Shown one piece after another: positions 2 to 63,465 of a stretch of DNA of 64,000 nucleotides. Made by a program: the position numbers and the translations under genes. Origin of the DNA: Agarophyton chilense (taxonomy: Eukaryota > Rhodophyta > Florideophyceae > Gracilariales > Gracilariaceae); NCBI GenBank assembly GCA_030374765.1, contig JARGXX010000095.1, forward strand, positions 310,001 through 374,000. The letters run 5' to 3'. The notes below the pieces were generated by a model. The model made no database searches. It worked only from the letters and a program-made list of their open reading frames with translations, and was not told the DNA's origin. Every line of letters begins with the position of its first letter. Position 1 is the stretch's first letter.

Positions 2-883
2 TGGGTCTACCGGTATGGTGCACCACTGTACCTACTTACCGATAATGGTTCAAACTTGGCATCGAAGTTCTTCGAAGCAGTCTCTAACATCTTGGGTATC
101 AAGAACTATTTCACTACTGCCTACTACACGCAGACGAACGGACAGGTCGAGCGCTTTAACCACACATTGGTATCAAGGCTACGACACCATACGGAAAAGC
201 ACCAAACTGGGTGGGATGAGCTGGTACAACCGCTCACCTACTCCTATAACCTTCAGGTACACTGGTCAACGCAGACCACTCCCTTTGATTTGGTTCTTTC
301 GCGACACCCCCCAGGTATTGTAGTGCAGGGAGATCATACCACCAGCACTGTAGCTGGCACACTGAACCCTGCCCAAGTCAAGCGAAATACCCTTGTGAGG
401 TTGAGGAGGGCTCTCAAACACGCAGAGAGCCGCCTCACTGCAGCCCAGAAGCAGTACAAGGCCGATTGTGACCGTAGGGTAACCAAAGTGGTCTCTGTTT
501 CGTCGGGACAGTATGTCTTCATAGACAACCCATCTTCATGTAAAAGACCACGACCGGGTGATGAAGCGGACGATGAAGTTATTGATAGAGATATCAATTC
601 GAAGCTTCTACCCAAATCATTGGGACGTTATAAGGTATTGAACGCACCATACCACACCGTTACGGTTGACCAGGACGGAATACCGAATATGATATCAATT
701 GACCGTATCACGGTAGCCCCTGAAACGGTTCAACATCGCATGGAGGCGGACACCTCAGCTCGAAAGCCCAGAGCTGTAGCCCTGCGTACTCGACCCTCGG
801 AGGACCCCGCCCCAATTGAGGTGAACGATGACCAACAAAGCGATGATCCGGATGACAAACCTCTAATAGGAACGGAAGTGTAA
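2..883 (+). CDS. Ty3/gypsy pol, integrase C-terminal part (element D, 5'-truncated by window)
   Basis: The reading frame is open from the window edge to a TAA at 881-883, so this is the 3' part of a pol polyprotein. It starts inside the integrase core: LTDNGSN holds the second catalytic Asp and NGQVERFNHT the catalytic Glu, followed by a typical helical stretch ending FDLVLSRHPP. The C-terminal part has a GPY-like region (LPKSLGRYKVL...HTVTVDQDG) and then an acidic tail. Integrase would insert the reverse-transcribed element cDNA into host chromatin. No stop lies within the visible part, unlike most pol copies in this window. The chromodomain follows in another frame (1006-1182). Protease, RT and RNase H lie outside the window. 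Assignment to Ty3/gypsy rests on the integrase motifs and the downstream chromodomain. Confidence 0.93.
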   Translation, partial: WVYRYGAPLYLLTDNGSNLASKFFEAVSNILGIKNYFTTAYYTQTNGQVERFNHTLVSRLRHHTEKHQTGWDELVQPLTYSYNLQVHWSTQTTPFDLVLSRHPPGIVVQGDHTTSTVAGTLNPAQVKRNTLVRLRRALKHAESRLTAAQKQYKADCDRRVTKVVSVSSGQYVFIDNPSSCKRPRPGDEADDEVIDRDINSKLLPKSLGRYKVLNAPYHTVTVDQDGIPNMISIDRITVAPETVQHRMEADTSARKPRAVALRTRPSEDPAPIEVNDDQQSDDPDDKPLIGTEV

Positions 884-1005: not shown

Positions 1006-1182
1006 TTTACCGTTTACCGTCTTGTGGGCCACACGCGAACCTACAATGGTCTGAAGTACACCGTCAGATGGTATGGCTGGAGATCAGAAGGGGACACCCT
1101 CGAATCCCCAGCCACAATACCCCCACACTTCCTTATCAGGTATTGGCGCCGTCGCAAGAAGCCGATGCCTGCAGACGGCTAA
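1006..1182 (+). CDS. chromodomain of element D, out of frame with pol
   Basis: Between a TAA at 1003 and a TAA at 1180 this frame reads FTVYRLVGHTRTYNGLKYTV and continues RWYGW...DTLES...IPPHFLIRYWRR, the usual chromodomain layout of chromoviral integrase tails (V-x-R-L at the start, Y-x-V-R-W-x-G-W in the middle, D-T-x-E-S then an I-P helix). Such domains are known to direct integration to modified histones. It is in frame 1 while the integrase ORF is in frame 2, and no ATG opens it. It is either a frameshifted tail of pol or, as in element A of this window, a separately read chromodomain. Confidence 0.85.
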   Translation, partial: FTVYRLVGHTRTYNGLKYTVRWYGWRSEGDTLESPATIPPHFLIRYWRRRKKPMPADG

Positions 1183-1531
1183 CCTTAGACCTTCGTGGTA
1201 CTCAGGCCTAAGAAAGGGGCAGAAAAGACGCCGTTTTCCGCAGAAGGTGGACGCATATGCGTTTCAGATTACCTACAAGGGAGGACACGAAAGAACAACC
1301 AACTGTAACAGTAGAGGAGACAAGAAGAGACAACAATTTACTTTAAGAAGGACCTGTCGGTTTAGGAGCAATGGAATCAGGAATACCCGGGTTATTGACT
1401 ACCCACGGAGAAAAACCCGCGGAAATGCTAGGAGCCATCAACCTCAGAGGTAGCGAAGGAGCGGTAGCCCCACCACTGGGGAGAGGAGTCGAAACCAAAA
1501 GAGGATGAACGAACGGACCCGCCGGAGCAGA

Positions 1532-3397
1532 TTACGAAACCGCAGGGTTCAATTTTGCACCTAGAAGGGGATCCGTCAAAAGATCAGATGGCGCAGCAGC
1601 AGAAACGCCTGCCAGATTGGCAACCTGACGGGGGCCCAGCTGGTACATGTCTAACTGGAACTGATTCCGGAACTCACAAAGTTGGTTCAGCGCCTTCATG
1701 TATTGCGCATGGCGCGGCAGCAAACCTTCAAGGAGCGTTTATGCAGCAACCACGGAGGTAGGGCCAGCCCTCTGAAAGTTGGTGACGCAAGACTGGCGAA
1801 TTCGAGCCAGCAAACCGACCACGGCCGGAGAATCCATCATAGGTTGAGGCGGAGGACGAGCAATACCCGCCAACAGAGGTCGAACCGGACTAGCAACCCG
1901 CGAGGAGCTCGGTTGAGTAGGAGTCACACCCGTAGGAATAGGCGACTTACGACCTTGAGGTAAGGGCTCGGACGGGAAGGGACCAGCATAACGACCAACT
2001 GGTGTCTCCACAGTACCGTGATGAGGTTAGGGGCTCGCGGGAGCTCCATAAACAGGAGGCTCCCCGGGATAGTATTGGGCGTGGCGAGGCACAATCTTCC
2101 AAGTTGCAGGATCGAAAGCCTCCCAACCTTGATGGGAATCCCAGTGGTACTTCTTGCTCTGCTCGAGATACGAGTCCAAATCCTTTACGGTATAATCGGT
2201 CCCCTCCACGATGTTCTCGTAACCAAATCGGGAAATATCCTGGGCAACCCTCAGAGGTATGAAGAAAGTGCGACCTACAGGTTGAACACCATCTCGGTAT
2301 ATGTCAGAATCGGGATTGCGACAATCGCAATCGATACCGTAACGAGCGGCCTCCAGAGCCAGGATGGCAACCAATACGGTCAACTCCGAGAGGGCGATTG
2401 ACCAAATGAGGCAATACTGCTCTAGGTTCCTGGAAACCTGACTCCCGAAGTACGCCAAAACCGGCGGAGTGGGCACGCTCAGTGATAACGGAACCTCATA
2501 GGACTCCCACCACTCTGGTCAAAGCACGTACCAATCGCGTCTGTCCTTCGTAGGTTGTGAGAAGTACTCGAAGTTATGAAACATATGCATAACGCGAGTG
2601 TACGAGTTGCGAGTGCGAACGCGACTCTCCGTCGCTGCATCCTCGCCCCACCTACTACGATCAGCCCAATTGATAGTGGTGAAAGGCCGATTCAGGGAAA
2701 CCAAGTCAGGTGAAACCGGAAGGTAAGTCTCCGGAATAGACGGGTACTGGCACACTTGTACCACCAATCGACGGTAATAATCCAGCTCCGGTTCGAAGCG
2801 CACATACGGCAAGTAGTTCGGATATATCGGCAGGATGAAATACCTCAAAGGTGTATGACGCTGCCGACTCTGGAAACATCCCAGTCGACCCTGACGAGGT
2901 TGAGACTCTTGGTCCCGTTTCTTCAAGAGCAAGGGAACGGAGCGAAGGCGCTCGCAGTCCCAACGGGACAAACCCAAGTAGGTATCCAATTGTGGTCAGG
3001 TAAGAGCCGCCGGCAACGACGAATTCCCTACCGCCACAGGCCAATCGTGCTTTAACAGGTCATTGTTCGTCACCTGGTCGAAAGTAATACCAAAAGGTCC
3101 ATACTGACTCGTCGTCCGGTTCGCCGCACCAAACGCGAGATTGTGAGCCCGATTGGTTTGGTTCGTCGAAGGAAGTCCACCACTGCGTTGGTGCGGGTCA
3201 GTCGGAGTCCCAGGGGAGAACTCAGTCGCAGGGACAGGCATACTGCGAAACCCAATGTTGGTAGGCGTTCGCGAGGTCGAGCTAGTTACCCTCTTCGTAA
3301 TACCACCGCGTCCACGGCCACGAGATGGGCCGCTACCTGACATGGTTGGGAAGGCCGTAGCTCGACCCGACGAACGAGGTGATGACTCGACCTCCAC
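1532..3397 (-). pseudogene. antisense accessory ORF of element D (decayed by nonsense changes only)
   Basis: On the strand opposite to pol, one frame runs 622 codons from an ATG at 3397 to 1532, broken only by four stops: TGA at 2996-2998, TGA at 2519-2521, TAA at 2027-2029 and TAA at 1739-1741. No frameshift is needed. It aligns to the antisense ORFs of elements A and C: PEWWESYEVP (just past the 2519 stop) matches PAWWSKVEVP in A, then PPVLAYFGSQ matches PPCIYYIGSR, and DLDSYLEQ...WD...GW..FDP matches DLYPILDV...WD...NW..YNP. The N-terminus is Arg/Gly/Ser-rich and low in complexity, and the C-terminus is Pro-rich, as in its relatives. Function unknown. The homology is clear in the middle third and weak at the ends. 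Confidence 0.75.
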
Positions 3398-4503
3398 CGC
3401 CGCGGTGAATACCAGCGGGTATACATCCTTCTAAAGTAGAGCCTCCTCGGTCCGTTCTGAACAGACGGCCAACGGATCCAACCTTTCCGGTAGTACCGAC
3501 ACTGATCATTCGGGTACAACAGTAGCCGGTTTGCGGTCGCGAGCGGGCCCAGACCTTTTATGTATCGTGGAACGGGACCAACCCGACCTTAAAGGCATAA
3601 CTGCAGTGGTTTCAATCCTCTCGGAATCTCCGACTTCTTCGACCTCAATGGTAACCGGCATCTCACGTCTCTCGAGCGCTGGTGCTGCTTGTGGGGACGA
3701 ACCACCCCTTCGAGGTATCGGTGACGAATCCACGAGGCGGCGTGAGGTGCACCGACGTGGTACCGAATGGGTTCGAACGCGTGCGTGGAGGTGGCGCGAT
3801 CCTGTCATTACCTTGAGGGTACACCGGAATGCAAAACCGGAAAAAGGTCGCGTGCTTACCAACGGGGCCGCTCAACACAAATAAGGTCTCACAACCGGAA
3901 GGTTCCACCACGGACCCAGGCCAACACCTCAATGGTTGTATCGACGCAGGCTCAGGCCCCACCGGCGCCGCGAGTCAATCCTTACAAGGTAGACGAAACC
4001 TGAAAGGTCGAGAAGCCAGGAAACCGTCAGGGAAAAGCCGGACAGTACGGTTACGGTCGCGACGGCGCCAATTAAGGGCAGTACTACCTGACGGGTTGTC
4101 GAGCCGTGGGAACGACCAGGCGGAACGGCGCTGCGCAGAGACCTATGACGGGAATGAAGTTGGAGTAACGGGGAAGGATGCGATACCAACTTGGTTAGAC
4201 AGTGGGCGATGCAGAAGCAGAATCGCAAGCAAACAGGGCCACTACCGAAAAGGTGTCCGAGGGCGTGCCAAGTACACTGCATCGCCCTCATGACAGTCCT
4301 TACCTGAGTGGTTGTCGCTCAATTCGTGCGCCAACGTCGTCGCGCGCCCTCCCCCAACCGATTCTGGTGCCGAGTTCTGAACCTCAAGGGACCCAGCGCC
4401 GCGCCCAGAAACTACTCCGATGCCTGCGCCGCTGTCGCTCGCTAAAACTCCATGGTGTGATGAAGGGAGACACGGGGCCTGCCTTGCCGGTAGGAAGGGG
4501 ATC
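3398..4503. other. non-coding spacer of element D between antisense ORF start and 3' LTR
   Basis: No convincing coding sequence. The frames here are short and lack recognisable motifs. One minus-strand frame (3862-3506) lies in the same phase as the antisense ORF and could be a 5' leader or N-terminal extension of it, but a stop separates them. The stretch ends in the purine-rich tract at 4491-4503 just before the LTR. Confidence 0.5.
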
Positions 4504-4748
4504 TGTCGTATAGTGGCGAAGGGCTGACCTTTGAAATGTCAGATACATTATGCTGACTTTGTAGGTGATGGGTGCGAGGAATCATCGGCCATGTAGGTCC
4601 GGGCGAGCTACCATCTAGGTGTTGCCAGCCACGTGTAGTGTTGACATGTACATTCTGGTTGAGTAGTTGTTAGTGATAGTAATTGTAATTATGTGTATTT
4701 TAATACAGTAGTTGAGTGGCCACCAGGCACTGTAGCCAGTAATGGCCA

Positions 4749-4773
4749 GGTCTCTGACTCTAGGTCAGAGACC
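4749..4773. repeat. 10-bp-stem hairpin in the D LTR
   Basis: GGTCTCTGAC (4749-4758) and GTCAGAGACC (4764-4773) are perfect inverted repeats around a 5-nt loop. Smaller hairpins follow at once (GTGCC...GGCAC; GCAGT..ACTGC). The position inside the LTR suggests a role in transcript structure or 3'-end formation; this is inferred. Confidence 0.7.
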
Positions 4774-5052
4774 GTGCCTTGCTGGCACCTCCCGGGTAAT
4801 CTGCGGAGTGCAGTCCACTGCATATAGGGAACTGCACCTCCCCCATCCTAATCTGATAAAGACAAACATCACCTGGGTGACGACTATACCTTTTGGTTCA
4901 TCGCTTCTGAACTACCACACAGTCTTTCCCGCTCGTCTACGCCTACCATCGTTCACCTACACGGTATAGGCTAGTTGCCCCGCCGTTTGTTCCTGCGGGT
5001 TTTTACGGTGCCCTATTACCATCGAGGTTTACTACGTGTACCTTCTAAGGTT

Positions 5053-5093
5053 GAGCGTCAAAACGCTCTCTACGGTTGAGCGTCACAACGCTC
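5053..5093. repeat. two tandem copies of a palindromic hairpin
   Basis: GAGCGTcaaaACGCTC (5053-5068) is repeated as GAGCGTcacaACGCTC (5078-5093), two identical 6-bp stems 25 bp apart near the right end of the D LTR. Confidence 0.75.
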
Positions 5094-5136
5094 CGGAGAC
5101 AAGACAGTTGCATACCCCAGAGATGATTGTACGACA

Positions 5137-17792: not shown

Positions 17793-18708
17793 TGTGGAGC
17801 AAAACCCGGCGACAGGAAGTGCTCTCAAGGTGTTCGAAGCCTTGCTCCCTGGGGGAGGCAGACTCAGAGACAGAGCCCTCCGTTCCACCCGTAGTGTGGG
17901 GTGTAACTCCCACGGGGGATTCCGGCGGTACCGACGGAGGTGAGGGGTAGAAACCGTTGGATCTTGAATGGGTATGGGTATCCCAAAGAATGGGGGAAAA
18001 TCCGGCGAAGAGGAAAAACGGGGCGAGGGTCGGGCACTAACAGGCACCGGACCCGAGAACCAGAAAAGGGGCGAAACAACAAAAGAAACCCAATACAGGG
18101 GCGAAAACCTGTCCTCGAAAGGAAACACAAAAAGCACGCAACAAGTAAGCAGAACCCCCACGGGGTATCGTGCACGCAGGTCGTCTGAGCGGTCCCAAGG
18201 GGGTGGTTGCACGGAACCCAAACGTGGGCACTCTCCAAGTGGAGTCGTGTCCCTACGCAGGCGTTGCTAACCAGAGCCCGTTCCGGGTTGTAAGGCCGAA
18301 ACGATGGCGACGAAGAACCTCTAAAGGTATCGAAGACCAACCTTGGTTTCCATTTACTCTGAGCTTCGGACTTTCAGATCTCATCTCCCTAAGTAGGGCC
18401 CACTAACTAAACTCTACAGTAGTGCACACCTGCTCAGGGCCATACACGTGGAGATCCCACTGTCAGGGCCCAAAAGTCCAACGTTTTAACAAATATCCGA
18501 AAATCGGTGCCAAAATTAAGCCACGTGTATCACGGGGTCAATCCAACCATGGGCCATCCGAATTTTCCCTTCATAGGCGAACTCTAACCAGAAAACAGTG
18601 CCACCTCAGCACACATTAGAGGGGATCATAGTCATAACCCTCGGAGGGTTCAACCCTCATTCTATGAGTTGCATCTTCAAGTATCCCCTAACTGGGCGTT
18701 GCTCTACA
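17793..18708 (-). repeat. 3' LTR of A1 (916 bp)
   Basis: In element orientation it begins TGTAGAGCAACGCCC and ends GCTCCACA. Family-wide terminal inverted repeat TGTRGAGC. It is preceded (element sense) by the polypurine tract AAGGAGGGGGAGA at 18709-18721. Open frames inside (up to 158 aa, repeated in all four A LTRs) are not considered genes. Confidence 0.95.
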
Positions 18709-18789
18709 TCTCCCCCTCCTTAAGACGAGGAAGAACATTCCGAGCCGCGGGTGTCTCGCTTTCCGGTCACTATATATACTTCTCTCCCA

Positions 18790-20646
18790 ATGGGGTCCTT
18801 CACCACTTCTGAGGATCGCCACAAAACCGGCACATCGGTACAACTTTCTTCTACTCCTCCGACTTTCGGCGATAAGCAACTTCTCGCAACAGCAGTCTCA
18901 ACCAGCCCTCTCAAGGGAATGAACCCATACGTCATCAACCCACTCTCGGGGCCGTCGGCCTCCGCGCCGGCGGACAACGAAGCTCCCCAGCAGGGTGGAT
19001 ATTTCTCCGGTTTTGATGCGGCTCCGTCAGGTACCGAACCTTCCGCCTCGGCGAGCAACCGACATCCTTAGGAGGATTTGGACATTAACGCGGTGGCGTG
19101 GAACTCCGCTCATGCGATGCCCTTGGTAGCAAACTCCAGAGGTTGGATCTCAAACGAATCCTTTCGAAGGTGGAGTCCCCTTACCGATCCGGTGATATAT
19201 TCCCGCGCTCCGTGGTTCCATCCGACAGCGGTTCGCGACGATGAGCTCATCGACTCCTACGTGGAGGACGGCTTATTGCCGGGTGGCCTACCTGTCGAGG
19301 TTGTACGTTCTCCCGATTGGAGGGCGCGGGTAGCCATAGAGCCTCAGTATCTATACCGCAGTCGCGGGGAGTCCCTGGACAAGGCGCGCGCAGCGATGGC
19401 GGCTCTGGCCTACCAGCGATTGGAGAGGTCACGCTTTGACCATCTGGTTCCCCCGGAGTACGGGTTCGATGTCGCCTATTACCGCACGTACGGTGAGGTC
19501 TCCTACGGGGATAACCTGGCAGCCTTTCCTGAAGCCGAGTTCCGCGGACCGGGTTTTCCTCTCCGAGAAGATATGCTCCAATGGAGTCGTCCCATCCTTC
19601 GGGCTGAATTCAGGTACCTTCAACGGCAGTTTACCCAGTATGGGTTCGATCGACGCGTGCGCTTCGAGCGCCGCTCGCGCTCCCGTTTCGGGTTCCTTGT
19701 CCCGTATCCTCACGTGGAACTGGAGCGTATCCGTAACACGGCGAAGGTTGGGCGATTCGTGCCACTTCCAGCTTGGTGGAGTAAGGTCGAGGTCCCCCGA
19801 GGGTGCTTTGCTGAACTGCCCCCATGCATCTACTATATCGGGTCTCGTTTGATGCACGACCCGAACTCGGGATACTGGGCCCTCGTTGCAGCCGAGTGGG
19901 CAGCCCGCGTAGCGGCGCACCTCCTCTGGGATGCTCATGACCATTTCCGTATCTGGTATATTCCTCCGATGCTACGGACCATCATGCGTCAGATTGACCT
20001 GGTCCCAGCGTTGGGTTCGGCCAGCAGCGTGCAGGACCTGTATCCAATCTTGGACGTGATCGACAACACCCAATGGGATCGAGTTCCAGTGGAAAATCAG
20101 CCTGCAGGGGAAGGATCCGCGCGAGACAAGTCTCCTGGCCGGTACGATCCGGGCTCCGGTAACTGGGTCTGTTACAATCCCTTCGAAGGGGTTCGCATCA
20201 GCGCGGCGCAAGCACGGGCGCTGATTGACTCGCCTCGACCGATGCCGGTGGGACACCCGACGGGGTTCATTTATACCGACGATTACGAGTACGAGCCTCC
20301 AGTAGACCTGGACGATCCAGCGTTGGATAACGACGTGCCAGCTCCTAGTGGAGTACTCCTTGTGGTGCCATCTGCACCCTTCCAACCAGTGGGAACGACC
20401 TCAGCTGCGGCGGCGAATGCATCCGGTGGCGGTCCATCTGCTCCCCCCGGGTGGGGTGTGAACACCCTTGCGCAGGCGCCGGTTGCCACTCCACAAGCGG
20501 ATAGTGTGCGACAAGGCCTCGTGAACGCAGGCATTCCGATTCCCCCGGGTATGACGGATGTGAGCCAGATGTTGGCTTTCGCCTCGGCGTACCATCAGGG
20601 TCAGAATCCCAACGGTGGGGTGGGTCCCTCCTCGGGCTTTCCGTAG
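18790..20646 (+). CDS. antisense accessory ORF of element A1 (about 618 codons, one internal TAG)
   Basis: Lies between the chromodomain and the 3' LTR and runs opposite to gag-pol. From ATG 18790 one frame reaches TAG 20644-20646 with a single interruption, TAG at 19069-19071, which A2 shares at the same codon. A TATATATA box is at about 18770. The predicted product has a low-complexity N-terminus, a conserved core and a Pro/Ala/Gly-rich C-terminus. Core motifs shared with the element C protein include LRAEFRYL, RFERRSRSRFGFLVPY, VEVPRGCFAELPP, YIGSRLMHDPNSGYW and LLWDAHDHFRIWY. No catalytic signature, zinc finger, membrane span or coiled coil was recognised. The family is unknown to me. Translation could be by readthrough or could start at a Met after the TAG (first at about 19113). 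Confidence 0.8.
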
Positions 20647-20689
20647 TTCCGCCTTCGGGCAATTGTGGAGTCCATAGCTTGGCGACAAT

Positions 20690-21047: not shown

Positions 21048-21287
21048 TTACCCGACTTGGGCACGATCCAGACTTGGAGGCAAGGTTACCCGAGCGCGTC
21101 GGTGATAGGATAAAACCTTAGACCTCGGAAGGTGCTCAATGGGTTCCACTGTATCCTCATCAGGCGAGAATCCGTACCATCGGACGTGGTAGCGGACTTC
21201 TCCCTCGGGGGTGTAGATGTGACGCAAGATGCGATCGATAACGAATTCCTGCGGGTACCCTTTTCCCTGTTCGGGGTTCTCTTCCAT
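21048..21287 (-). CDS. chromodomain protein of element A1, own ORF (79 aa)
   Basis: ATG at 21287. The product reads FVIDRILRHIYTPEGEVRYH, then VRWYGFSPDEDTVEPIEHLP and SKVLSYHRR, a complete chromodomain of the chromovirus type. It is not fused to pol: pol stops at 21889 about 600 bp upstream, and A2 shows the same arrangement. Expression as a separate product (spliced, reinitiated or subgenomic) is inferred. Confidence 0.85.
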   Translation of the reverse strand: MEENPEQGKGYPQEFVIDRILRHIYTPEGEVRYHVRWYGFSPDEDTVEPIEHLPRSKVLSYHRRARVTLPPSLDRAQVG

Positions 21288-21888: not shown

Positions 21889-24800
21889 CTATTCCCATTC
21901 CATAACGGAGAGCCAAATTTGGGCAACCTCGTCGTCGAGATCTTCCCCGTGCGGGTACGCTGACACAGCTCGATCCCGAGAAAGCGGGGTTTGAGTGTGC
22001 GACACCTCAGTGTCTCGTCCGCGGCGGCGGGTGATCGTCAGCTCTGTATGCGTTCCGGGTGCGGAGTTCTCCACACGACTCTCCCTAGGCGGGTTTTCGT
22101 CATCTTTTCTGACGTCGTGCTCGGCTGGGTCGGCGGTGATGTCGCTACCCATACGCTGGGGTTGTGACCTCTCTGTCGCCGGCTCGGTCGGGCTCGCCGT
22201 CTCACTGTGAGAACTAGATTCCCTGTTAGGGCGACTGGCTGACGCCGAAACATCGTCCTGCGAAGGAACTAAGTCCTCCTCCCCCTCCTTAGGCGGAGAG
22301 CCAGGAGGCTTGATTACCTCCGGTGGGGGAGCAACTCTGTAAGAGTTCGTTGACTTGGCCCTTGAGGGAGCGGGCCCAGGTTCGGGAGCATCCGAAGTTT
22401 CCGCTGTGGTTTCCAAGCGGGATAGTGCATCAGCCTAAGTGTTCAGCTTCCCTTCCTTGTACAGGATCTCAAAGTCAAATTCCGACAGTCGGAGACGCCA
22501 GCGCATAAGGCGGCCCGAGGGTTCGGAGATCTCCAGGAGCCAACGCAAGCATGCGTGGTCCGTATGGACTTTGAAACGAGTACCCATCAGATAGGGGCGA
22601 AGTGTAGCTAAGGCCCACACAACGGCTAAACATTCTTTCTCGGAGACCGAGTAGTTCCTTTCATGGACATTCAGGGAACGTGACCAGTACCCAATAGGGT
22701 GACGTTCACCATCCTCAGAGGATTGGAACAGTGCACACCCTACTTGGTTTGCACTAGCATCGGTGTCCACTTCGTAAGGGAGCCCAGGATTGGGTAGAGC
22801 CAAGATTGGCGGTGATGTTATGGCATTCACCAGTGCCGTGAAGGCAGACGCTTCTGCGTCGCCAAAAGGTTTCAGTTCAACTGGTTGTCCCTTCGTCAGG
22901 AGCCTGTTGAGGGGGGTGGCAATATCCGCAAAGTTCGGGACGAATCGGCGATACACGTCACACAGACCTAAGAAGGATCGCAACTCCGTTTGAGTTTTCG
23001 GGTGTTTTGCTTCCTTCAAGGATTTCACTCGTACTTCATCGATTGAAAGCTGTCCGGGACGGATGATAAGACCCAGATACTTAACCGAATCGGTGAAAAA
23101 CTCGCACTTCTTGAGTTTCAAGGTGATTCCCGCGTCGCGGAGTATCTTCATTACGTCCCTGACGTGTTCGAGGTGGTCATCCAGGTTGTTGGAGAAGACA
23201 ATAATGTCGTCTAAATACACTAGACACGTCCTCCACTTGAAGGGAGCCAACAGAATGTCTATCGCCCGTTGAAACGTTGCGGGGGCATTTGTCAACCCAA
23301 AAGGCATCCTCCGGAATCGGAAAAGTCCTTGATGACACACGAAAGCCGTTTTGTCTCGATCTTCCTCCCTAACAGAGACTTGCCAGTAGCCTGAATTGGC
23401 GTCGAGGGTAGAGAAAACAGTAGCGCTCCCAAGGGAGTCGATGTATTCGTCCATCCCAGGGATCGGGTACACATCCTTAATGGTTACCTCGTTTAGGCGT
23501 CTGTAATCGATGCAGAAACGCCACGATCCATCCGGTTTCGGAACTAACACCACGGGTGAGGCCCAAGCGGACTGGGCAGGTTCCATTACGCCCGCTTTAA
23601 GCATCTTCTCCACCTGAGATTTCTCCTCTTCCCGAGCTTTCGGTCCAGCCCTGTAAGGGTGTTGGGCAATAGGCCGAGTGTTCGGTAACAAGTCGATGCG
23701 GTGTTCTGTAATCCCAATAGTTCCAAGGGAACCATCCCACATGGGGGTAAATTCACGAAGCATGTGCCTCAGCTTCTCCCGATGAGATGCGGGTACATGG
23801 TTGAGATCCCATTTCTCCAATTCCTGAACAGGATCCGTCTGGTCTGCTCCTGTGATAGGGGCCGTAACCTCCTGAGGTTTAAAGCGTTCAGCGTGTGGAG
23901 CTGCAGTCGTATGCTCACCGTCTTCCGCGATTTCGGCAGTGTCCTCCCCCTCCTTAGGGTCCGCCACACCAAGGACCTCTGCGATAGAGATCTTTGTAGG
24001 TACGACCGCATGCGGGTGTGGAAGAACAGAACCCAGGACCTGGTGTTTGACCAAATGCTGCGTTGTCTTTCCAAAGTTGGCTACCAAAACCTTGAAAGGT
24101 TTATCCGGTTCCACGGAGACAACCCCATTCGCAAGGGCGAGTTGACGCCGCGTATACAGAGACGGGTTCGGTTGTACCACATGCACACCAATTTGCTTGG
24201 TAACAACTGTGACCCAAACCTGGGTTTCTGGCGGGATAGCCACTGACTTCGCAACCTTTACCCGTGTAGACACCGGGTCCTTTTTCGCAGATTTCTGCGC
24301 GACAGGGAGAGGAACGCGTGTTCGCGCTGCTCCCTGTAAGGGTTTACGAACGATTGGGATCGTAGATCCATCTTCGAGTTCCACAGTTCTATTCCGAGGA
24401 CGGATGGCTTCCACGAAGCGGTCGCAAAAGTCACAACCCAGTGTGACCGGTGCTGCAAGTGACTTGCATACGATAAACTCTAGCTGAACGAGATAGGAGC
24501 CTAACCTCACCATGAGGGAAATTGTACCCAGTGTCCGTAGCGGGTTGTTGTTCGCATCGGCGATATCCAAACGTGGACCGGTACGAACTTGAACCCGGAG
24601 CAGCGGGGGTAACAATTCAACATGAATTAAGTTAGGAGCGGCTCCTGTATCCAGGACAGATATTTGACGAACCATAAACTGGTTGGACAGGCCGAAGTCG
24701 GCGAATACTTTATAATTCCGCTTGGCCATTACCATAACTCGATCCGGAATACGGAGATTACGGGACCGTATCCACGGGCGACGGACGACACTAAAGTATC

Positions 24801-24927
24801 CCGAGTTAACGTCGGTGTCAGCCGTTTTCCTTGAAAGGATAGTCACAGCTGGGGAGCGAAGCTGGAGCGCCTCGGGCGTCTTCAACTCCGGCTTAGGAGA
24901 CGCCCCTCTCGCAGGGGAGACTCCCAA
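21889..24927 (-). pseudogene. pol of element A1 (protease-RT-RNase H, integrase deleted in frame)
   Basis: The frame follows gag in the -1 phase. Protease: VLDTGAAPN at residues about 91-99. RT: FCIDYRRLNEVTIKD, YLDD in LVYLDDIIVFS near residue 569. RNase H: EVDTDASANQVGCALFQ and TDHACLRW. After ILYKEGKLNT a TAG (22435-22437) interrupts, and the frame continues ADALSRLETTAET directly into the Pro/Ser/Glu-rich tail that follows integrase in A2, ending MEWE at 21889. The whole integrase is therefore missing through an in-frame deletion at a 7-bp repeat CGGAAAC. Apart from that TAG the frame is open, so RT and RNase H may be intact. Product function: copying of element RNA into cDNA. Confidence 0.92.
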
Positions 24928-24929
24928 GT

Positions 24930-26904
24930 TTAGTTTTTCGAAGCGGACCCCACCGAATTCGGTGCAGCTGCCTCGAAGGGGACTGGTTGTTCCCCGTTCG
25001 CGGGTACATGTTCTGTATCCCTGTCAGCAAGGTGAGCTCGGAGTATTCTTTGTTCTTCATAGGACCTACTCGAAACTCGAGCTTTCTCCTCAGGGGTCAG
25101 AGTCTCGTACTGAGCGATAATTCGTGAACCCTCCCGCAGGGGAAATGTGCAGTCTGGTGCTTTGTGACCACGGAGGTAACACAAATAGCAAATCAGCTCT
25201 GCCGGGTTCGGTTGTGGACGTGAATCCACGCGACATGGTGCTGTATCCCTCCATCCGGGGCGAGAGAACCGAGCAGCGGTATTCGCAAAAGGTAGCGATG
25301 CGGCCGGCACCCTTCGTCCTTGGGTATAGAGCGCAGGGTCTTCATCCGTAGTCGGAGCGGATGTCGACGGCAACTCAGACGTACCCATAGATTTGGGGTT
25401 ACTTCCCATGAAGTGAATGTTACCATTGACCCCCACAGGGGCAGGGCCTCCTGCGAGTGACAAAGACGAGTTACCTCCATCGGCGAGGAGTGCACGTGTC
25501 GGCCGACTGTTTCGGTTCTGCCGGGCACGGAGAGTATCCCCCTCAGCCTGGGCGTACTGAACCAGTTCCAAGTAGGTCAGCTTGCGCTTCTCTTCCCGAT
25601 GTCGGGCAACCAATGCCCTTATCGAGGGGTCCAAACCATCCACAAACATGGAGCATCTCTCGTAGACGGGGAATACATTCCCGCATCGGTGAAACGCTTT
25701 ATTCAAGCGAGTTGAATACACCGTTTCGGTTTCCATCGGCTTCTGCCGCGTATCCCTTAATGCAAGGAATGCTTCCTGAATCGCATTTCCAGTAGCGTAT
25801 GACCTCAAGAGGTACTGCACCGCTTCGGGCCAGCACGTGACTCCCCCTTCCGAGGCTCGGGATGATCCACGGACGGAGTTGAACTGGTCTTCAGCCATCC
25901 CCTTTAAGAAATAGGGTAATGCAAGATACGCTTGTGCTTCACTCATACCGAGGATGTCAGCCTCCTGGACGAACCTCGCAAGGAAATCGAGCACCAGAAT
26001 TGGGTCTGTTCCTGTGAACTCCCTCTTCTGTAGGGTGATTCTCAGCCTTTTGATGTAGGTAATAGCGGTACGATAGCAGCTTACGATAGAGAGGATTCGT
26101 CGGCTTCAGCTCCCTTAATCCAAGGTGTTTCCTACCCTTCGTCCGGGTACGGATTGCCCCTTGAGAGGTGTAAGTAGCCTTCGACCGAGTCGCCCGGGAT
26201 GACCGGCGCCCATCTTCACTATCCGAAGATTCGGAGGACGAACTCGATGACGAGCGATTGGGATCGGAATCCGATAAATCCTCTTGGAGTTGAACCCTCT
26301 TCTTGGAGTTGCGGCGGTCCCGTTTAGCGGAGCGGTGTTCTTCGTCTTCCAAAACGTCGGGTTTATCCTTCGAGGCTTCTTTGTCTCCGTCCATACGGAT
26401 AATGGCCTCGAGGGTGTCCAGCCGAGCTCGGAAGCGTTCCGCTTGCACGCGGTGTTCCTCCACGAGGCTCCGTTACTCCTGGATAAAGACCCCAGGGGTA
26501 CAAAAGCTTTCTAAAAGGGAGTTCACATCCCTCCTCAGGGTACGAAGGTCATCGGCGACTCCCCGCACCTGGGCGTCCTCCACCTTGCGGCGGAGGGTAG
26601 TAACCTCCTGAAGGAGCTCAACGTGAGCCGCGTTGGCGATATCCATTCGAGTCTCCAGGCGCTGTAATTCAGGGTCGGCCCGACTTCCGGGTGCTGCTGA
26701 GGGGGTCTCCACCACTGGAGCTGGGCCCACAGCCACGACCTCTCGAGGACCTGAAACCACTGAGGGTGCTCTCCGAGTGTCCGGATCGATACCGGAATCG
26801 TTCCGACCTTCAGAAATTGAGCTCCTCGGCCTAGGCGGGGCCGGGGGCACTGAATCCGCTTGACGGTTCGATCCAGTCCTGGAACCACGGGTAGGCGGCG
26901 ACAT
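24930..26904 (-). pseudogene. gag of element A1
   Basis: ATG 26904 begins MSPPTRGSRTGSN as in A2. The N-terminal part has a coiled-coil-like segment (LQRLETRMDIANAAHVELLQ...), an acidic Ser tract (SSSSSSSESSDSEDG), then the capsid region (FLARFVQEADILGMSEAQAY) and a CCHC zinc knuckle CYLCYLRGHKAPDC near the end. Two lesions are visible: TAA at 26473-26475 where A2 has Tyr, and a deletion of about 60 bp near 26058 that shifts the frame. It ends at TAA 24930-24932 right after the GAAAAAC motif. Gag would package element RNA in virus-like particles. Confidence 0.92.
24933..24939 (-). promoter_or_regulatory. candidate -1 ribosomal frameshift site, A1 gag-pol
   Basis: On the minus strand the last gag codons read TCG AAA AAC TAA. 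The heptamer GAAAAAC abuts the stop, pol continues in the -1 frame, and a CCCCT...AGGGG stem-loop lies about 15 nt downstream. The same arrangement is kept in A2 (38680-38686). Confidence 0.55.
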
Positions 26905-27131: not shown

Positions 27132-28047
27132 TGTGGAACAAAACCCGGCGACGGGAAGTGCTCTCAAGGTGTTCGAAGCCTTGCTCCCTGGAGGAGGCAG
27201 ACTCAGAGACAGAGCCCTCCGTTCCACCCGTAGTGTGGGGTGTAACTCCCACGGGGGATTCCGGCAGTACCGACGGAGGTGAGGGGTAGAAACCGTTGGA
27301 TCGGGAATGGGTATGGGTATGCCAAAGAATGGGGGAAAATCCGGCGAAGAGGAAAAACGGGGCGAGGGTCGGGCACTAACAGGCACCGGACCCGAGAACC
27401 AGAAAAGGGGCGAAACAACAAAAGAAACCCAATACAGGGGCGAAAACCTGTCCTCGAAAGGAAACACAAAAAGCACGCAACAAGTAAGCAGAACCCCCAC
27501 GGGGTATCGTGCACGCAGGTCGTCTGAGCGGTCCCAAGGGGGTGGTTGCACGGAACCCAAACGTGGGCACTCTCCAAGTGGAGTCGTGTCCCTACGCAGG
27601 CGTTGCTAACCAGAGCCCGTTCCGGGTTGTAAGGCCGAAACGATGGCGACGAAGAACCTCTAAAGGTATCGAAGACCAACCTTGGTTTCCATTTACTCTG
27701 AGCTTCGGACTGTCAGATCTCATCTCCCTAAGTAGGGCCTACTAACTAAACTCTACAGTAGTGCACACCTGCTCAGGGCCATACACGTGGAGATCCAACT
27801 GTCAGGTCCCAAAAGTCCAACGTTCTAACAAATATCCGAAAATCGGTGCCAAAATTAAGCCACGTGTATCACGGGGCCAATCCAACCATGGGCCATCCGA
27901 ATTTTCACTTCATAGGCGAACTCTAACCAGAAAACAGTGCCACCTCAGCACACCTTAGAGGGGATCATAATCATAACCCTCGGAGGGTTCAATCCTCATT
28001 CTATGAGTTGCATCTTCAAGTATCCCCTAACTGGGCGTTGCTCTACA
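27132..28047 (-). repeat. 5' LTR of A1 (916 bp)
   Basis: Direct repeat of 17793-18708. Ends (element sense) GTTCCACA, followed by AG and the candidate primer-binding site TGGTCTCCCGACTTAGAA on the minus strand (about 27112-27129). Confidence 0.95.
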
Positions 28048-33165: not shown

Positions 33166-33176
33166 GTCCGGGGGTG

Positions 33177-35515: not shown

Positions 35516-36431
35516 TGTAGAGCAACGCCCAGTTAGGGGATACTTGAAGATGCAACTCATAGAATGAGGGTTAAACCCTCCGAGGGTTATGACTATGATC
35601 CCCTCTAAGGTGTGCTGAGGTGGCACTGTTTTCTGGTTAGAGTTCGCCTATGAAGTGAAAATTCGGATGGCCCATCGTTGGATTGGCCCCGTGATACACG
35701 TGGCTTAATTTTGGCACCGATTTTCGGATATTTGTTAGAACGTTGGAATTTTGGGCCCTGACAGTTGGATCTCCACGTGTATGGCCCTGAGCAGGTGTGC
35801 ACTACTGTAGAGTTTAGTTAGTGGGCCCTACTTAGGGAGATGAGATCTGACAGTCCGAAGCACAGAGTAAATGGAAACCAAGGTTGGTCTTCGATACCTT
35901 TAGAGGTTCTTCGTCGCCATCGTTTCGGCCTTACAACCCTGAACGGGCTCTGGTTAGCAACGCCTGCGTAGGGACACGACTCCACTTGGAGAGTGCCCAC
36001 GTTTGGGTTCCGTGCAACCACCCCCTTGGGACCGCTCAGACGACCTGCGTGCACGATACCCCGTGGGGGTTCTGCTTACTTGTTGCGTGCTTTTTGTGTT
36101 TCCTTTCGAGGACAGGTTTTCGCCCCTGTATTGGGTTTCTTTTGTTGTTTCGCCCCTTTTCTGGTTCTCGGGTCCGGTGCCTGTTAGTGCCCGACCCTTG
36201 CCCCGTTTTTCCTCTTCGCCGGATTTTCCCCCATTCTTTGGGATACCCATACCCATTCCCGACCCAACGGTTTCTACCCCTCAACTCCGTCGATACTGCC
36301 GTAATCCTCCGTTGGAGTTACACCCCGCACTACGGGTGGAACGGAGGGCTCTGTCTCTGAGTCTGCCTCCCCCAGGGAGCAAGGCTTCGAACACCTTGAG
36401 AGCACTTCCTGTCGCCGGGTTTTGCTCCACT
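35516..36431 (+). repeat. 5' LTR of A2 (916 bp)
   Basis: Begins TGTAGAGCAACGCCC. The last base is changed (CCACT instead of CCACA). Candidate primer-binding site TGGTCTCCCGACTTAGAA starts at 36434. Confidence 0.95.
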
Positions 36432-38689: not shown

Positions 38690-38691
38690 AC

Positions 38692-42908: not shown

Positions 42909-43148
42909 ATGGAAGAAAAGCCCGAACAGGGAAAAGTGTACCCGCAGGAATTCGTTATCGATCGCATCGTGCGTCACATCTACACCCCCGAGGGAGAAGT
43001 TCGCTACCAAGTCCGATGGTACGGATTCTCGCCTGATGAGGATACAGTGGAACCCATTGAGCACCTTCCGAGGTCTAAGGTTTTATCCTATCACCGACGC
43101 GCTCGGGTAACCTTGCCTCCAAATCTGGATCGTGCCCAAGACGGGTAA
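42909..43148 (+). CDS. chromodomain protein of element A2, own ORF (79 aa)
   Basis: ATG 42909 to TAA 43146. Reads FVIDRIVRHIYTPEGEVRYQ, VRWYGFSPDEDTVEPIEHLP. It is in frame 3, whereas pol is in frame 1 and ended 576 bp upstream. The arrangement is identical to A1, so the separate ORF is a property of the family and not a defect of one copy. Confidence 0.85.
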   Translation: MEEKPEQGKVYPQEFVIDRIVRHIYTPEGEVRYQVRWYGFSPDEDTVEPIEHLPRSKVLSYHRRARVTLPPNLDRAQDG

Positions 43149-43549: not shown

Positions 43550-45405
43550 CTACGGAAAGCCCTAGGAGGGACCCGCCCCACCGTTGGGATTCTGACCCTG
43601 ATGGTACGCCGAGGCGAAAGCCAACATCTGGCTCACATCCGTCATACCCGGGGGAATCGGAATGCCCGCGTTCACGAGGCCTTGTCGCACACTATCCGCT
43701 TGCGGAGTGGCAACCGGCGCCTGCGCAAGGGTGTTCACACCCCACCCGGGGGGAGCAGATGGACCTCCACCGGATGCATTCGCCGCCGCAGCTGAGGTCG
43801 TTCCCACTGGTTGGAAGGGTGCAGATGGCTCCACAGGGAGTACTCCACTAGGAGCTGGCATATCGTTTTCCAACGCTGGATCGTCCAGGTCTACTGGAGG
43901 CTGTACTCGTAATCGTCGGTATAAATGAACCCCGTCGGGTGTCCCACCGGCATCGGTCGAGGCGAGTCAATCAGCGCCCGTGCTTGCGCCGCGCTGATGC
44001 GAACCCCTTCGAAGGGATTGTAACAGACCCAGTTACCGGAGCCCGGATCGTACCGGCCAGGAGACTTGTCTCGCGCGGATCCTTCCCCTGCGGGCTGATT
44101 TTCCACTGGAACTCGATCCCATTGGGTGTTGTCGATCACGTCCAAGATTGGATACAGGTCCTGCACGCTGCTGGCCGAACCCAACGCTGGGACCAGGTCG
44201 ATCTGACGCATGATGGTCCGTAGCATCGGAGGAATATACCAGATACGGAAATGGTCATGAGCATCCCAGAGGAGGTGCGCCGCTACGCGGGCTGCCCACT
44301 CGGCTGCAACGAGGGCCCAGTATCCCGAGTTCGGGTCGTGCATCAAACGAGACCCGATATAGTAGATGCATGGAAGCAGTTCAGCAAAGCACCCTCGGGG
44401 GACCTCGACCTTACTCCACCAAGCTGGAAGTGGCACGAGTCGCCCAACCTTCGCCGTGTTACGGATACGCTCCAGTTCCACGTGAGGATACGGGACAAAG
44501 AACCCGAAACGGGAGCGCGAGCGGCGCTCGAAGCGCACGCGTCGATCGAACCCATACTGGGTAAACTGCCGGTGAAGGTACCTGAATTCAGCCCGAAGGA
44601 TGGGAGGACTCCATTGGAGCATATCTTCTCGGAGAGGAAAACCCGGTCCGCGGAACTCGGCTTCGGGAAAGGCTGCCAGGTTATCCCCGTAGGAGACCTC
44701 ACCGTACGTGCGGTAATAGGCGACATCGAACCCGTACTCCGGGGGAACCAGATGGTCAAAGCGTGACCTCTCCAATCGCTGGTAGGCCAGAGCCGCCATC
44801 GCTGCGCGCGCCTTGTCCAGGGACTCCCCGCGACTGCGGTATAGATACTGAGGCTCTATGGCTACCCGCGCCCTCCAATCGGGAGAACGTACAACCTCGA
44901 CAGGTAGGCCACCCGGCAATAAGCCGTCCTCCACGTAGGAGTCGATGAGCTCATCGTCGCGAACCGCTGTCGGATGGAACCACGGAGCGCGGGAATATAT
45001 CACCGGATCGGTAAGGGGACTCCACCTTCGAAAGGATTCGTTTGAGATCCAACCTCTGGAGTTTGCTACCAAGGGCATCGCATGAGCGGAGTTCCACGCC
45101 ACCGCGTTAATGTCCAAATCCTCCTAAGGATGTCGGTTGCTCGCCGAGGCGGAAGGTTCGGTACCTGACGGAGCCGCATCAAAACCGGAGAAATATCCAC
45201 CCTGCTGGGGAGCTTCGTTGTCCGCCGGCGCGGAGGCCGACGGCCCCGAGAGTGGGTTGATGACGTATGGGTTCATTCCCTTGAGAGGGCTGGTTGAGAC
45301 TGCTGTTGCGAGAAGTTGCTTATCGCCGAAAGTCGGAGGAGTAGAAGAAAGTTGTACCGATGTGCCGGTTTTGTGGCGATTTTCAGAAGTGGTGAAGGAC
45401 CCCAT
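43550..45405 (-). pseudogene. antisense accessory ORF of element A2
   Basis: Near-identical to the A1 ORF, from ATG 45405. It carries the same TAG (45121-45123) as A1, a one-base deletion near 43906 that shifts the frame after DDYEY, and a TAG near 43560. The core from AWNSAHAMPLVANS to DDYEY (408 codons) is open. TATATATA lies upstream near 45415. Unknown function, same family as 18790-20646 and 56684-58510. Confidence 0.8.
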
Positions 45406-45486: not shown

Positions 45487-46410
45487 TGTAGAGCAACGCC
45501 CAGTTAGGGGATACTTGAAGATGCAACTCATAGAATGAGGGTTGAACCCTCCGAGGGTTATGACTATGATCCCCTCTAATGTGTGCTGAGGTGGCACTGT
45601 TTTCTGGTTAGAGTTCGCCTATGAAGGGAAGATTCGGATGGCCCATGGTTGGATTGGCCCCGTGCTACACGTGGCTTAATTTTGGCACCGATTTTCGGAT
45701 ATTTGTTAGAACGTTGGACTTTTGGGCCCTGACAGTGGGATCTCCACGTGTATGGCCCTGAGCAGGTGTGCACTACTGTAATTAGTAGAGTTTAGTTAGT
45801 GGGCACTACTTAGGGAGACGAGATCTGACAGTCCGAAGCTCAGAGTAAATGGGAACCAAGGTTGGTCTTCGATACCTTTAGAGGTTCTTCGTCGCCATGG
45901 TTTCGGCCTTAAAACCCTAAACGGGCTCTGGTTAGCAACGCCTGCGTAGGGACACGACTCCACTTGGAGAGTGCCCACTTTTGGGTTCCGTGCAACCACC
46001 CCCTTGGGACCGCTCAGACGACCTGCGTGCACGATACCCCGTGGGGGTTCTGCTTACTTGTTGCGTGCTTTTTGTGTTTCCTTTCGAGGACAGGTTTTCG
46101 CCCCTGTATTGGGTTTCTTTTGTTGTTTCGCCCCTTTTCTGGTTCTCGGGTCCGGTGCCTGTTAGTGCCCGACCCTTGCCCCGTTTTTCCTCTTCGCCGG
46201 ATTTTCCCCCATTCTTTGGGATACCCATACCCATTCCCGACCCAACGGTTCTACCCTTCACCTCCGTCAGTACTGCCGGAATCCCCCGTGGGAGTTACAC
46301 CTCACATTACGGGTGGAACGGAGGGCTCTGTCTCTGAGTCTGCCCCCCCCCCAGGGAGCAAGGCTTCGAACACCTTGAGAGCACTTCCCGTCGCCAGGTT
46401 TTGCTCCACA
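45487..46410 (+). repeat. 3' LTR of A2 (924 bp)
   Basis: Preceded by the polypurine tract AAAGAGGGGGAGA. Begins TGTAGAGC and ends GCTCCACA, then CTGCA. It carries small insertions relative to the other A LTRs, such as a C run near 46346. Confidence 0.95.
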
Positions 46411-55300: not shown

Positions 55301-56020
55301 ATCCAAATACATGATATTTAGAAGGATTCTCTCATTAAAGCGAATTTTCTCGGCACCAAATGCAACTCTGGAGCCAGTTGGAGCGTTTTGAATACTTTAA
55401 CAGGGATCATTTGTCTTTGTTAGTTCCTTTAGAATAGACAAAGACTCTTGTTTAGTTTCTTCCGGACGGGACCTTTTTTCATAAGGTTGAACAGTTTCTC
55501 AGCAGAGGGGTGTAAAGACTGTTTGTGTAGCTTCATGAGTTAGGACTTAGTGAAGAAAGTACGGTTCTGAAGAGCGGAATCAACGAACACATGTCCACTT
55601 ATGGCTTTATGCAGAGGAATATATTATTTATCGATTTACTGTTCGGAACCACCATCATGACGAATGCATAATCGTTTGGTTAAGCGACTTGAAACTGTAT
55701 CCGCTATCAACAATTTTTTTCCAGGACGTCTATACCTAGGAGATCGTGTATGCCAGCTTGAGAAACATCAAGTTTGATCAGTATAGGATGGGAAGTAGGT
55801 GGTGTTTCTAGAGATATAACGACTTGCCCTATTGAATCGGAGCTGTTTTAGGCGAAGCGAAACATTGATATCGATGGTCTCTTTGAATGGATCGGCATGT
55901 GAATTTTTGTTTCATGATACATTCTTTTTCCTTCCATGATTCCTGTATTATCCGCTCTAACGGAGAGAGCAGACACCTGCGACAGCGTTCGGACTGCCGA
56001 TGGGTCGCTTGCGGCGAAAA
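52350..56020 (-). pseudogene. Ty1/copia-like pol remnant (protease-integrase-RT-RNase H)
   Basis: Read right to left in several frames. Protease-like GQVVISLETPPTSHPILIKL with HDLLGIDVLEKNC near 55740-55840. Integrase: VLVDQGTAFW near 55220, SSLGIGERYHQSL and MNDTLGPEGIFPSALI (55230-54739 open for 163 codons). RT: NVLPGKFVLSIMS, LDIWTSDISQA, LYVLMKDGILKG, VDDLLR (copia-type x-V-D-D). RNase H: NVGFSDWSFANN near 53480, then FTDSKSLFDFISK near 52520 and SNIGFVRSSENIANNLTK near 52400. The order protease-integrase-RT-RNase H is diagnostic of copia. Many stops and shifts. About 700 bp that do not fit (about 52665-53380) interrupt RNase H. Confidence 0.85.
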
Positions 56021-56029
56021 AAAAGGGGT

Positions 56030-56659
56030 GGTAGAGCTACAACACCAGCGAGCTAGAAGTGGGGTGTAAGGCCACTACTCGCCAGCGAGGGTGAACAGTG
56101 CAACTGTAAAACGTTGATGGAACATAGGTACGAGACGGCTCGTGAAGTGGTTGGGGGCTGACTATCTATTATAGCTCGTCCGGATCTCCGGTTAAGGAAT
56201 CCTAAGCGATGAACAGAATAGTCATGATGCCCATATTGTCTCCTTTACTTGGAGTCGGCGCTCACCTCTGGTACACTATATACTGTGTACCAGTGTGAGT
56301 GCCCAAATAAATATATAAATAATACCCAGTGGTCAGCCACTTAGCCAAACCACTGTATGGGTATAGTCCCTAATGGACGTCTAGCTACCAAGGGTAGTAA
56401 AGCCCTCCACGTGGATCGCCACTTCATGCGCCGTTGCCAATATGGCATTCCCCTAGGAAGGGTCGCAACTATGCGCGCACCGTGGTAAGCCACTCGACCC
56501 ATGGCGTCACGTGTTCCACTAAGACATTCTGCCTCTAGACATCCTATGCGGGATGCCGTTCCATATCACAATGCTGATGATATCACTCACTTATGAGTTC
56601 CAACCGCGACTTCGCGAAAAACCAGCCTATCGGATTCCCCGACATAGTAGAATACTACA
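56030..56659 (-). repeat. 3' LTR of element C (left boundary approximate)
   Basis: On the + strand it ends GAATACTACA at 56659, followed by TATCCCCCTCGTTAAG, the complement of a polypurine tract matching that of A. It contains a 9-bp-stem hairpin CTGGTACAC/GTGTACCAG (56268-56293) with a TATA-like loop and AAATAAATATATAAATAA at 56305-56322, usable as TATA or poly(A) signal depending on the strand. Confidence 0.6.
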
Positions 56660-61800: not shown

Positions 61801-63465
61801 TACTTCGCGGAGAGCCGCTGTTTGGGCCTCTTTAATGGCAAGCTGTCCGGGCTTGATCACACGTCCTAAGTACCGGACGGTGCCAGCGAACCATTCGCAT
61901 TTCTTGAACTTCAAGGTGATACCTACGCTCTGTAGTGCTTTGAGGATCTCCTCGACATGCCGTAAATGGCTTTCCACATCCTGGGAAAAGATGATCACAT
62001 CGTCCAAATACACTAAACAAGTCTTCCACTTGTATCTTGAGAGCAAGATGTCCAGAGTACGCTGGAAAGTAGCCGGTGCATTCATTAAGCCAAAGGGCAT
62101 CCTTTTGAAACGGTAGAGACCGGTGTGACACGCAAATGCGGTTTTATCTTGATCTTCTTCCGCTACACGCACCTGCCAATAGCCAGAGTTGGCGTCCAAC
62201 GTGGTGAACACGTTCGCTTCTCCTAAGCTGTTAATACATTCGTCCATTCGAGGCAACGGGTATGTATCTCGAACTTTAACTGCGTTCAGTTTTCGATAAT
62301 CGATACAGAATCGTAAGGAACCATCAGGTTTTGGAACCAGCACCACTGGGGAGGCCCAAGCAGATTGAGCTGCTTCGATTACTCCTTCTTCCATCATTTT
62401 GCTGACATTCTCCTCCTCGATTTGGCGAGTTCGCGGTTCCGCTCTGTAGGGTGGTTGGGAGATGGGTCGTGACCCTGGGACCAAATCAATGTGGTGTTCC
62501 GTAGCGGAGATCTCTCCTAGTTTTCCACTCCACATGGATGTATGCTTCTTCAGCATAGACCTGGTCTTCGTTCTGTAGTGTTCCGACACATGTGCTAAGT
62601 CTAGCTCATCGAACAGGCTCTCTGGATCCTTTGCCGTTTGAAATTGATCTCCAGAGGGAGTTTGCAGTTCTTCGTCTGTGTCACGGACATGGGTTAATCC
62701 CAATACTTCAGCAGTAGAAATATGAGTAGGGACCACCACTGTGGGATGAGGCAAAGCTGTTGCAACAACCTGATTCTTCGGTATCTGATAATCGTTATCG
62801 GTGAAGTTACTCACTATTATCCAAAAGGGGCTACCAGGATCAACCTGAACCATGCCGTTAGCGACTAGCAATCCACGGGATTCGTACATCCATGTATTCG
62901 GTTGAATTACCATGAGTCAGTGTCGTTCTGTTCTTACTTGAACCCAAATTTGGGTTTGCACCTTCAGCATAGCACTCTTCGCTACTCGAATCCTCGGCGA
63001 GACACGTCCTCGGGATTCCCTGTATTCCATAGACGGAGAAAGTGGAGGTGCTTCAGAGCAACGACGCAATGGCTTGCGAACAATTGGTACCATTGATCTA
63101 TAATCTAGTTCCACTAGTTTTCTTGGCGAGCGAATGGCTTCGACAAACTTGTCGCAATAATCACATCGCAGTACCACTGGTGCAGCTAACTTCTTACAGA
63201 CTATGAAGTCGACTAGGACTACAAAGCGTCCCAAACGCACCACGAGTCGAACTGTTCCCAGTGTCTTCACAGCATTTTTGTTGGCATCCCGGATGTCCGG
63301 TAAAGGACCGTATCGAATACGTTCTAAGTCAGCAGGAGCGAGCTCCAATTCCCGTATAAAGTTCGGACCAGCACCTGTGTCCAGGATAGTCAATCGACGA
63401 GATAACAGATTCCTGTCAGAGCCGATGTCGGCATAGACCTTATAGTTTCTTTTAGACACTACCAT
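58870..63465 (-). CDS. pol of element C with fused chromodomain (about 1530 codons, one TGA)
   Basis: ATG 63465 to stop 58870-58872, interrupted only by TGA 62917-62919. Protease ILDTGAGPN; RT FCIDYRKLNAVKV, YLDD in LVYLDDVIIFS near residue 485; RNase H SVDTDSSEYQVECALFQ and TDHSSLRW; integrase HHCC (HLAHYSRLSGH...CTTCAK), STDILGEL, LSDNGKKF and NGQVAHLNRT, where Ala replaces the catalytic Glu. After a Glu/Pro/Ser-rich linker the chromodomain is in frame (YVMDRICEHGEHEVTRELLY, VRWYGFPPEADTWES). Unlike A and D, the chromodomain is part of the polyprotein. Otherwise the best-preserved pol in the window. Confidence 0.93.

Follow-up and report, generated by a model that had tools for sequence, protein, structure and literature searches.

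The window analysed here is a 64,000-nt stretch of contig C95 (positions 310001-374000) of the red alga Agarophyton chilense; genome-wide searches covered the assembly of 79.8 Mb in 135 contigs. The window contains four chromodomain LTR elements or parts of them (A1, A2, C and D) and another Ty3/gypsy element, B, in which A1 is nested. A fifth chromodomain element, E, lies outside the window, to its left (Table 1). E ends at position -146 and the match to the D integrase begins at -145, showing that E inserted into the integrase region of D. Ty3/gypsy pol order and a chromodomain located C-terminally after the integrase (by Pfam in C, E=6e-6 for Chromo; by tblastn in A1, A2 and D) place these elements among the chromoviruses. 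The two LTRs of E are 97.2% alike. Element C has its second LTR starting at 66057, beyond the window, with the outer part missing. Target duplications were clear in A2 and B, and not clear in A1 or E. A Pfam search with the gag of A1 gave no match.

All five chromodomain elements of the region carried an additional gene on the strand opposite to gag-pol, in the interval from chromodomain to 3' LTR. For the four elements in the window, this place and orientation had been proposed by a first-pass annotation and were found as described. The orientation of E led us to expect such a gene beside its 3' LTR, where an intact ORF of 597 codons was then found. The gene was absent from B, the only other Ty3/gypsy element of the region. 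There is no room for it in B, because the pol ORF stops 11 nt before the LTR. No chromodomain was detected in B by tblastn or Pfam.

Table 1 Features of the elements in and beside the window (window positions unless a contig is named).
Feature	Position	Strand	Evidence and remarks
D integrase part of pol	2..883	+	tblastn; left side cut by insertion of element E
D chromodomain stretch	1027..1170	+	tblastn with C pol, E=5e-6
D antisense gene	1343..3808	-	ATG at 3808, stop at 1343; 7 internal stops, decayed; tblastn with L045, 87.5% over 3871-1349
D 3' LTR	4504..5136	+	~695 nt from antisense ATG
Element B	16595-33771		Ty3/gypsy; LTRs 16595-17188 and 33177-33771; target duplication AGAGT; A1 nested within
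Element A1	17793-28047	-	LTR pair and pol matches; nested in element B
A1 3' LTR	17793..18708	-	antisense ATG 81 nt inside LTR edge
A1 antisense ORF	18790..20646	+	in-frame TAG at codon 94 (19069-19071); 522 codons open from next start at 19078
A1 chromodomain stretch	21051..21269	-	tblastn with C pol
A1 pol part, protease-RT-RNase H	22435..24927	-	Pfam, tblastn; C-terminal pol partly lost
A1 gag	24930..25994	-	ORF and tblastn
A1 5' LTR	27132..28047	-	LTR pairing
Element A2	35516-46410	+	LTR pair; target duplication CTGCA at 35511-35515 and 46411-46415
A2 5' LTR	35516..36430	+	LTR pairing
A2 chromodomain stretch	42945..43145	+	tblastn with C pol
A2 antisense ORF	43550..45405	-	TAG at codon 94 as in A1; frameshift near C-terminus, giving 5 more stops
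A2 3' LTR	45487..46410	+	antisense ATG 81 nt inside LTR edge
C 3' LTR	55944..56659	-	antisense ATG 24 nt inside LTR edge
C antisense ORF	56684..58510	+	608 codons, open; blastp to A1 E=4e-67
C pol	58870..62913	-	RT, RNase H, integrase, chromodomain ~58954-59091; Pfam
Element E	C95:298437-309854 (window -11563 to -146)		loci L063, L009; outside the window, left; intact-looking

Other features of the region were noted in passing. A primer-binding-like sequence common to A, C and E lies beside the 5' LTR (27114-27129 in A1 and matching places). In C, a short tandem repeat (58613-58755, unit ~55 nt) separates the stop of the antisense ORF from that of pol; tandem repeats have been reported in the same region of Retand. 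A Tc1/mariner-like transposase ORF was found at 47683-48375 (PF13358 DDE_3, E=9e-18). An intron-free ORF of 1796 aa at 6716-12106, probably a host gene, had no Pfam match at E 0.01.

The antisense frames had been described as ORFs of 608-622 codons in all four elements. The frames exist, and only that of C is open. Those of A1, A2 and D are broken, and the D gene is longer: the frame noted earlier for D (1532-3397, 4 internal stops) is an inner part of it, and two intact relatives of D are open over 842 (L045) and 861 codons (L048). Nor are the four elements four separate lineages. A1 and A2 belong to one family, being 98.8% identical (blastp, 501 aa), which leaves three lineages in the window, A, C and D, and these are distinct. 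The absence of a coding sequence opposite the antisense frames was confirmed, the longest opposite open stretch across the four frames in the window being 226 codons; it reached 286 codons in L052, a relative of D outside the window.

Genomic matches to the antisense gene numbered at least 83 for A, 72 for C, 150 for D and 73 for E. These are the best-scoring part of 1843 (A), 1814 (C), 1101 (D) and 1906 (E) first-look candidates, and thus the copy numbers are lower bounds and the shares of intact copies are biased upwards. Among the copies fetched, neither stop nor frameshift was present in 15 of 30 from family A and 2 of 20 from family D, and 2 of 8 from family C had no stop, one of the two without ATG. 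Counted by eye among the matches listed, 14/72 in C and 49/73 in E had no internal stop. The gene also stays with pol: 21 of the 54 listed A pol matches had one of the 83 listed A antisense matches within 6 kb, on the opposite strand in every case, the remaining 33 being no proof of absence. The gap between the two was 3.2-3.35 kb in 18 of these pairs and 1.7-1.8 kb in three, including A1, where pol is partly lost.

The antisense proteins form one conserved family, as the first-pass annotation had claimed for A, C and D, with E as a new lineage sharing place and orientation. A1 and C were 33.9% identical over 475 aa (blastp, E=4e-67). Identities were 39-41% for A-E, 34-35% for A-C and 32-35% for C-E. 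The decayed D gene of the window matched A1 weakly (blastp, E=4e-4 over 35 aa). An intact D relative was securely related to A, its local score of 150 comparing with a mean of 44.8 (sd 5.8) and a maximum of 80 in 300 shuffles. It was less securely related to C (score 74; shuffle mean 45.9, sd 6.2, maximum 69), and D matched E by tblastn at 2e-10. The core motifs reported for all three lineages do not hold for D, which retains PEWWESYEVP..PP..YFGS..W..E and little else. Invariant residues in the five aligned proteins include, in C numbering, R309, R311, W342, E346, P356, P357, Y361, G363, S364, W375 and E381.

The other genes of the elements diverged in the same order. For gag, A and E were 56% and A and C 42% identical, and for RT the values were 63-67% and 54-60%. 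D was the most distant lineage both in the antisense ORF and in the integrase (33-36%). The order was identical in gag, RT and antisense ORF, by a ranking of identities and not a tree test, as expected if the antisense gene travelled along with the elements.

The N-terminus of the antisense protein is rich in Ser, Pro, Gly and Thr, and its core is rich in aromatic residues, with a basic ERRxRxR patch. The A, C and E proteins have an acidic stretch (net -9 to -15 per 60 residues), and no membrane span was found in them. The highest hydropathy over 19 residues was 1.08 in C, 0.93 in A, 1.17 in E and 2.09 in D. Basic clusters at one common place, as a clear nuclear signal, were not seen. Pfam searches with the five antisense proteins up to E=10 returned no match, neither a bZIP nor PF04195 (Transposase_28), which the library should include; this is consistent with the earlier statement that no relation to the antisense ORFs of plants could be recognized. 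A genome profile search with PF04195 was empty, but the control profiles were silent as well. NCBIfam held no relative, and PDB searches by sequence and profile up to E=10 gave nothing convincing. From IMG/VR and from bacterial and archaeal genomes we obtained 13 and 20 pattern matches, respectively, none confirmed as a relative. Two AlphaFold2 models, built on alignments restricted to window sequences (3 and 5 of them), were unusable (mean pLDDT 36.6 and 33.0). These searches and models gave no known domain and no usable structure, and with them no link to DNA, RNA or transcription.

To assess selection within families, sites with two alleles were split into private (variant in one copy) and shared, and changing versus silent variants were compared with the neutral expectation, using Fisher tests that treat sites as independent. 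Family D was represented by 18 of 20 copies, the others having too many gaps; its private variants had an omega of 1.12 and its shared variants of 0.58 (p=8.8e-5). Stops followed the same pattern, with 25 private ones against 23.9 expected, and a single shared one against 7.4 expected. Omega fell to 0.33, 0.29 and 0.28 for variants present in at least three, four and five copies. When the D frame was divided into four segments, shared omega was 0.47-0.68 in all, two of them being significant singly. The alternative two frames gave shared omegas of 1.33 and 0.97, so that the selection is specific to the frame of the antisense gene. Nearly neutral private and constrained shared variants fit copies that decay freely after insertion, in lineages that need the protein to propagate.

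Families A (30 copies: private 0.76, shared 0.52, p=0.17; 2 shared stops, 2.4 expected) and C (8 copies: private 0.82, shared 0.71, p=0.83) pointed in the same direction as D, without significance on their own. The pooled test (p=2e-4) was driven by D. Selection on the protein, as postulated at first, is thus supported in D, and not in A or C taken alone. Pol yielded no valid benchmark: A pol (29 of 30 copies, 208 codons) had private and shared omegas of 1.18 and 1.01 (p=0.81), in a reference frame with 4 stops that is largely non-coding outside the chromodomain; an earlier A pol comparison had rested on a single copy. C pol, with only 6 of 8 copies, gave 0.83 and 0.52 (p=0.43). We are almost certain that the antisense gene is a real gene under selection.

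The antisense ATG is close to the 3' LTR in A, C and E (46 nt from the LTR edge in E, counted by eye; the others in Table 1), and the two are separated by the element's purine-rich tract. At 24-81 nt, the start of an antisense mRNA would have to be in the LTR or in those few bases. Judging from this geometry, the antisense promoter is probably located in the 3' LTR. Of 30 copies from family A, three lacked the ATG, and in one it was unaligned. The argument is weaker for D, whose leader is ~695 nt long; conservation is lower in the first part of this leader than in the sequence around it, and the leader may be spliced.

The LTRs also contain CACGTG boxes (18445, 18522, 27784, 27861, 35697, 35774, 45668, 45745, 56408, 56508, 4630, 16625 and 33207), two per LTR in A, C and E and one in D and B. 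Paired boxes as a shared bidirectional enhancer of A, C and E were given little weight, because B has a box without having the ORF, and 3 of 100 shuffles reached the window total of 22 (14.7 expected).

Antisense extra ORFs are an established class. Zhao et al. are said to have described, in Virology in 2011, Boty-like elements of Botrytis cinerea with an antisense gene, brtn. Such ORFs have been known in LTR retrotransposons since the 1990s, their function being given as not known in the review excerpts (PMC7264820), and examples named there and elsewhere are Grande, RIRE2, Retand and PvRetro13 in plants and brtn of the fungal Boty (PMC7264820, PMC8365987). Elements A1, A2, C, D and E carry the ORF in the position typical of this class, in many copies and with a conserved protein, selection being significant in D only. 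Boty, too, belongs to Ty3/gypsy and has its extra gene antisense in the interval from pol to 3' LTR, according to the parts of the sources available (PMC7264820, PMC8365987). It differs in its fungal host, and BRTN was set beside the algal protein by description only; in Monilinia, similarity to BRTN is named for a chromodomain-containing transcript (excerpt of PMC5987419). Maize Grande gene23, rice RIRE2 and PvRetro13 have the same place and orientation, as far as the excerpts tell (PMC7264820), but are plant elements, likened here by description and not by sequence. The antisense ORF of Retand is described with a TRP28 domain (PF04195; excerpt of PMC11963269), which was undetected in the algal proteins, and Retand elements are non-chromoviruses, whereas the algal elements carry a chromodomain.

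The best explanation, to which we assign a probability of roughly 55%, is that the chromodomain elements possess a third gene, antisense and inherited with gag-pol, that is selected for its protein, with an LTR promoter and a regulatory role as its inferred parts. The gene would have accompanied gag-pol since before the divergence of lineages A, C, D and E, and its mRNA would initiate at an antisense promoter within the 3' LTR. Less surely, the protein would act in the nucleus and regulate the expression or integration of its own element. It probably helps the elements. Among the functions suggested by the first-pass annotation (regulation, integration, evasion of host defence), regulation is our best guess. 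It was chosen because of the analogy with HBZ of HTLV-1, which the provirus encodes antisense and expresses from its 3' LTR (excerpt of PMC10186651), and because reviews propose regulatory roles for the antisense ORFs of plants (excerpts of PMC7264820 and PMC11963269); for the Grande product a nuclear location is reported (PMC7264820, in part). HBZ serves as a functional model only, being a retroviral bZIP protein, and the algal proteins have neither a bZIP nor another recognized domain. The regulatory role, suggested by analogy, is hence put forward tentatively, at somewhat under even odds. A further-reaching version, which we consider rather unlikely, makes a protein family unrelated to those described the third core gene of chromodomain retrotransposons in red algae. 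Produced antisense out of the 3' LTR of integrated copies, the protein would sense copy number or chromatin state and toggle the element between expression and silence, a self-regulation that would have arisen independently of HTLV HBZ and plant TRP28.

Among the alternatives, an unlikely but not far-fetched one is an accessory factor of particle structure or replication. As a component of the virus-like particle or pre-integration complex, it might bind nucleic acid or assist nuclear import or, with the chromodomain, chromatin targeting. The conserved basic patch of the core and the inheritance together with gag-pol fit this; the separate antisense mRNA that it requires would be an odd route for a particle protein, and hhalign found no resemblance to gag (E=0.49, probability 0.1), a result on which a Gag duplicate was also rejected.

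Somewhat less probable still is a protein that counters host silencing by RNA interference or heterochromatin. Such a protein would be needed because the antisense mRNA, as the complement of the genomic RNA, could pair with it into double-stranded RNA. By geometry the sense RNA overlaps the entire antisense gene, and the fast divergence of the protein (A-E identity 39-41%; gag 56%, RT 63-67%) is in line with this role.

That the antisense RNA matters and not the protein, the frame being incidental to self-limiting double-stranded RNA, is very improbable. Antisense transcripts do limit other retroelements, according to excerpts of PMC7264820 and PMC4007536. Against an RNA-only role stand the frame-specific selection in D and the protein similarity across lineages, which persists although third codon positions are saturated between them (0.68-0.72 different), first and second positions not being so (0.40-0.49). 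We see hardly any chance for an Env-like protein or a spurious ORF: env would lie in this interval too, but the antisense orientation and the hydropathy maxima given above speak against it, and homology across lineages rules out a chance ORF as the lack of a long opposite ORF in the window rules out coding constraint from the other strand.

Returning to the antisense third gene, its architecture is known; its protein family is without a recognized relative, with BRTN compared by description only, and its host group is new. In the excerpts of the open-licence PMC literature available, no such gene is described for red algae, and none for non-plant hosts other than Boty. Red algae are far from the plants and fungi in which such antisense ORFs were described. 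Here a single genome holds one protein family across four diverged lineages, each in many copies, with frame-specific selection in one of them; with its invariant residues and high copy number, the family lends itself to experimental tests.

As a side observation on the assembly, a profile search for chitin synthase (PF03142) gave no candidate, and one for Zn_clus gave none either, though with silent controls; together with the photosynthesis domains named next, this led to the rejection of a fungal host. Contigs C39, C88, C10, C68, C16, C1 and C80 carry phycobilisome linker domains (PF00427, 13 matches over the cut-off). All of these except C39 are noted as large contigs that also host the elements described here, and the light-harvesting domain PF00504 gave 9 matches.
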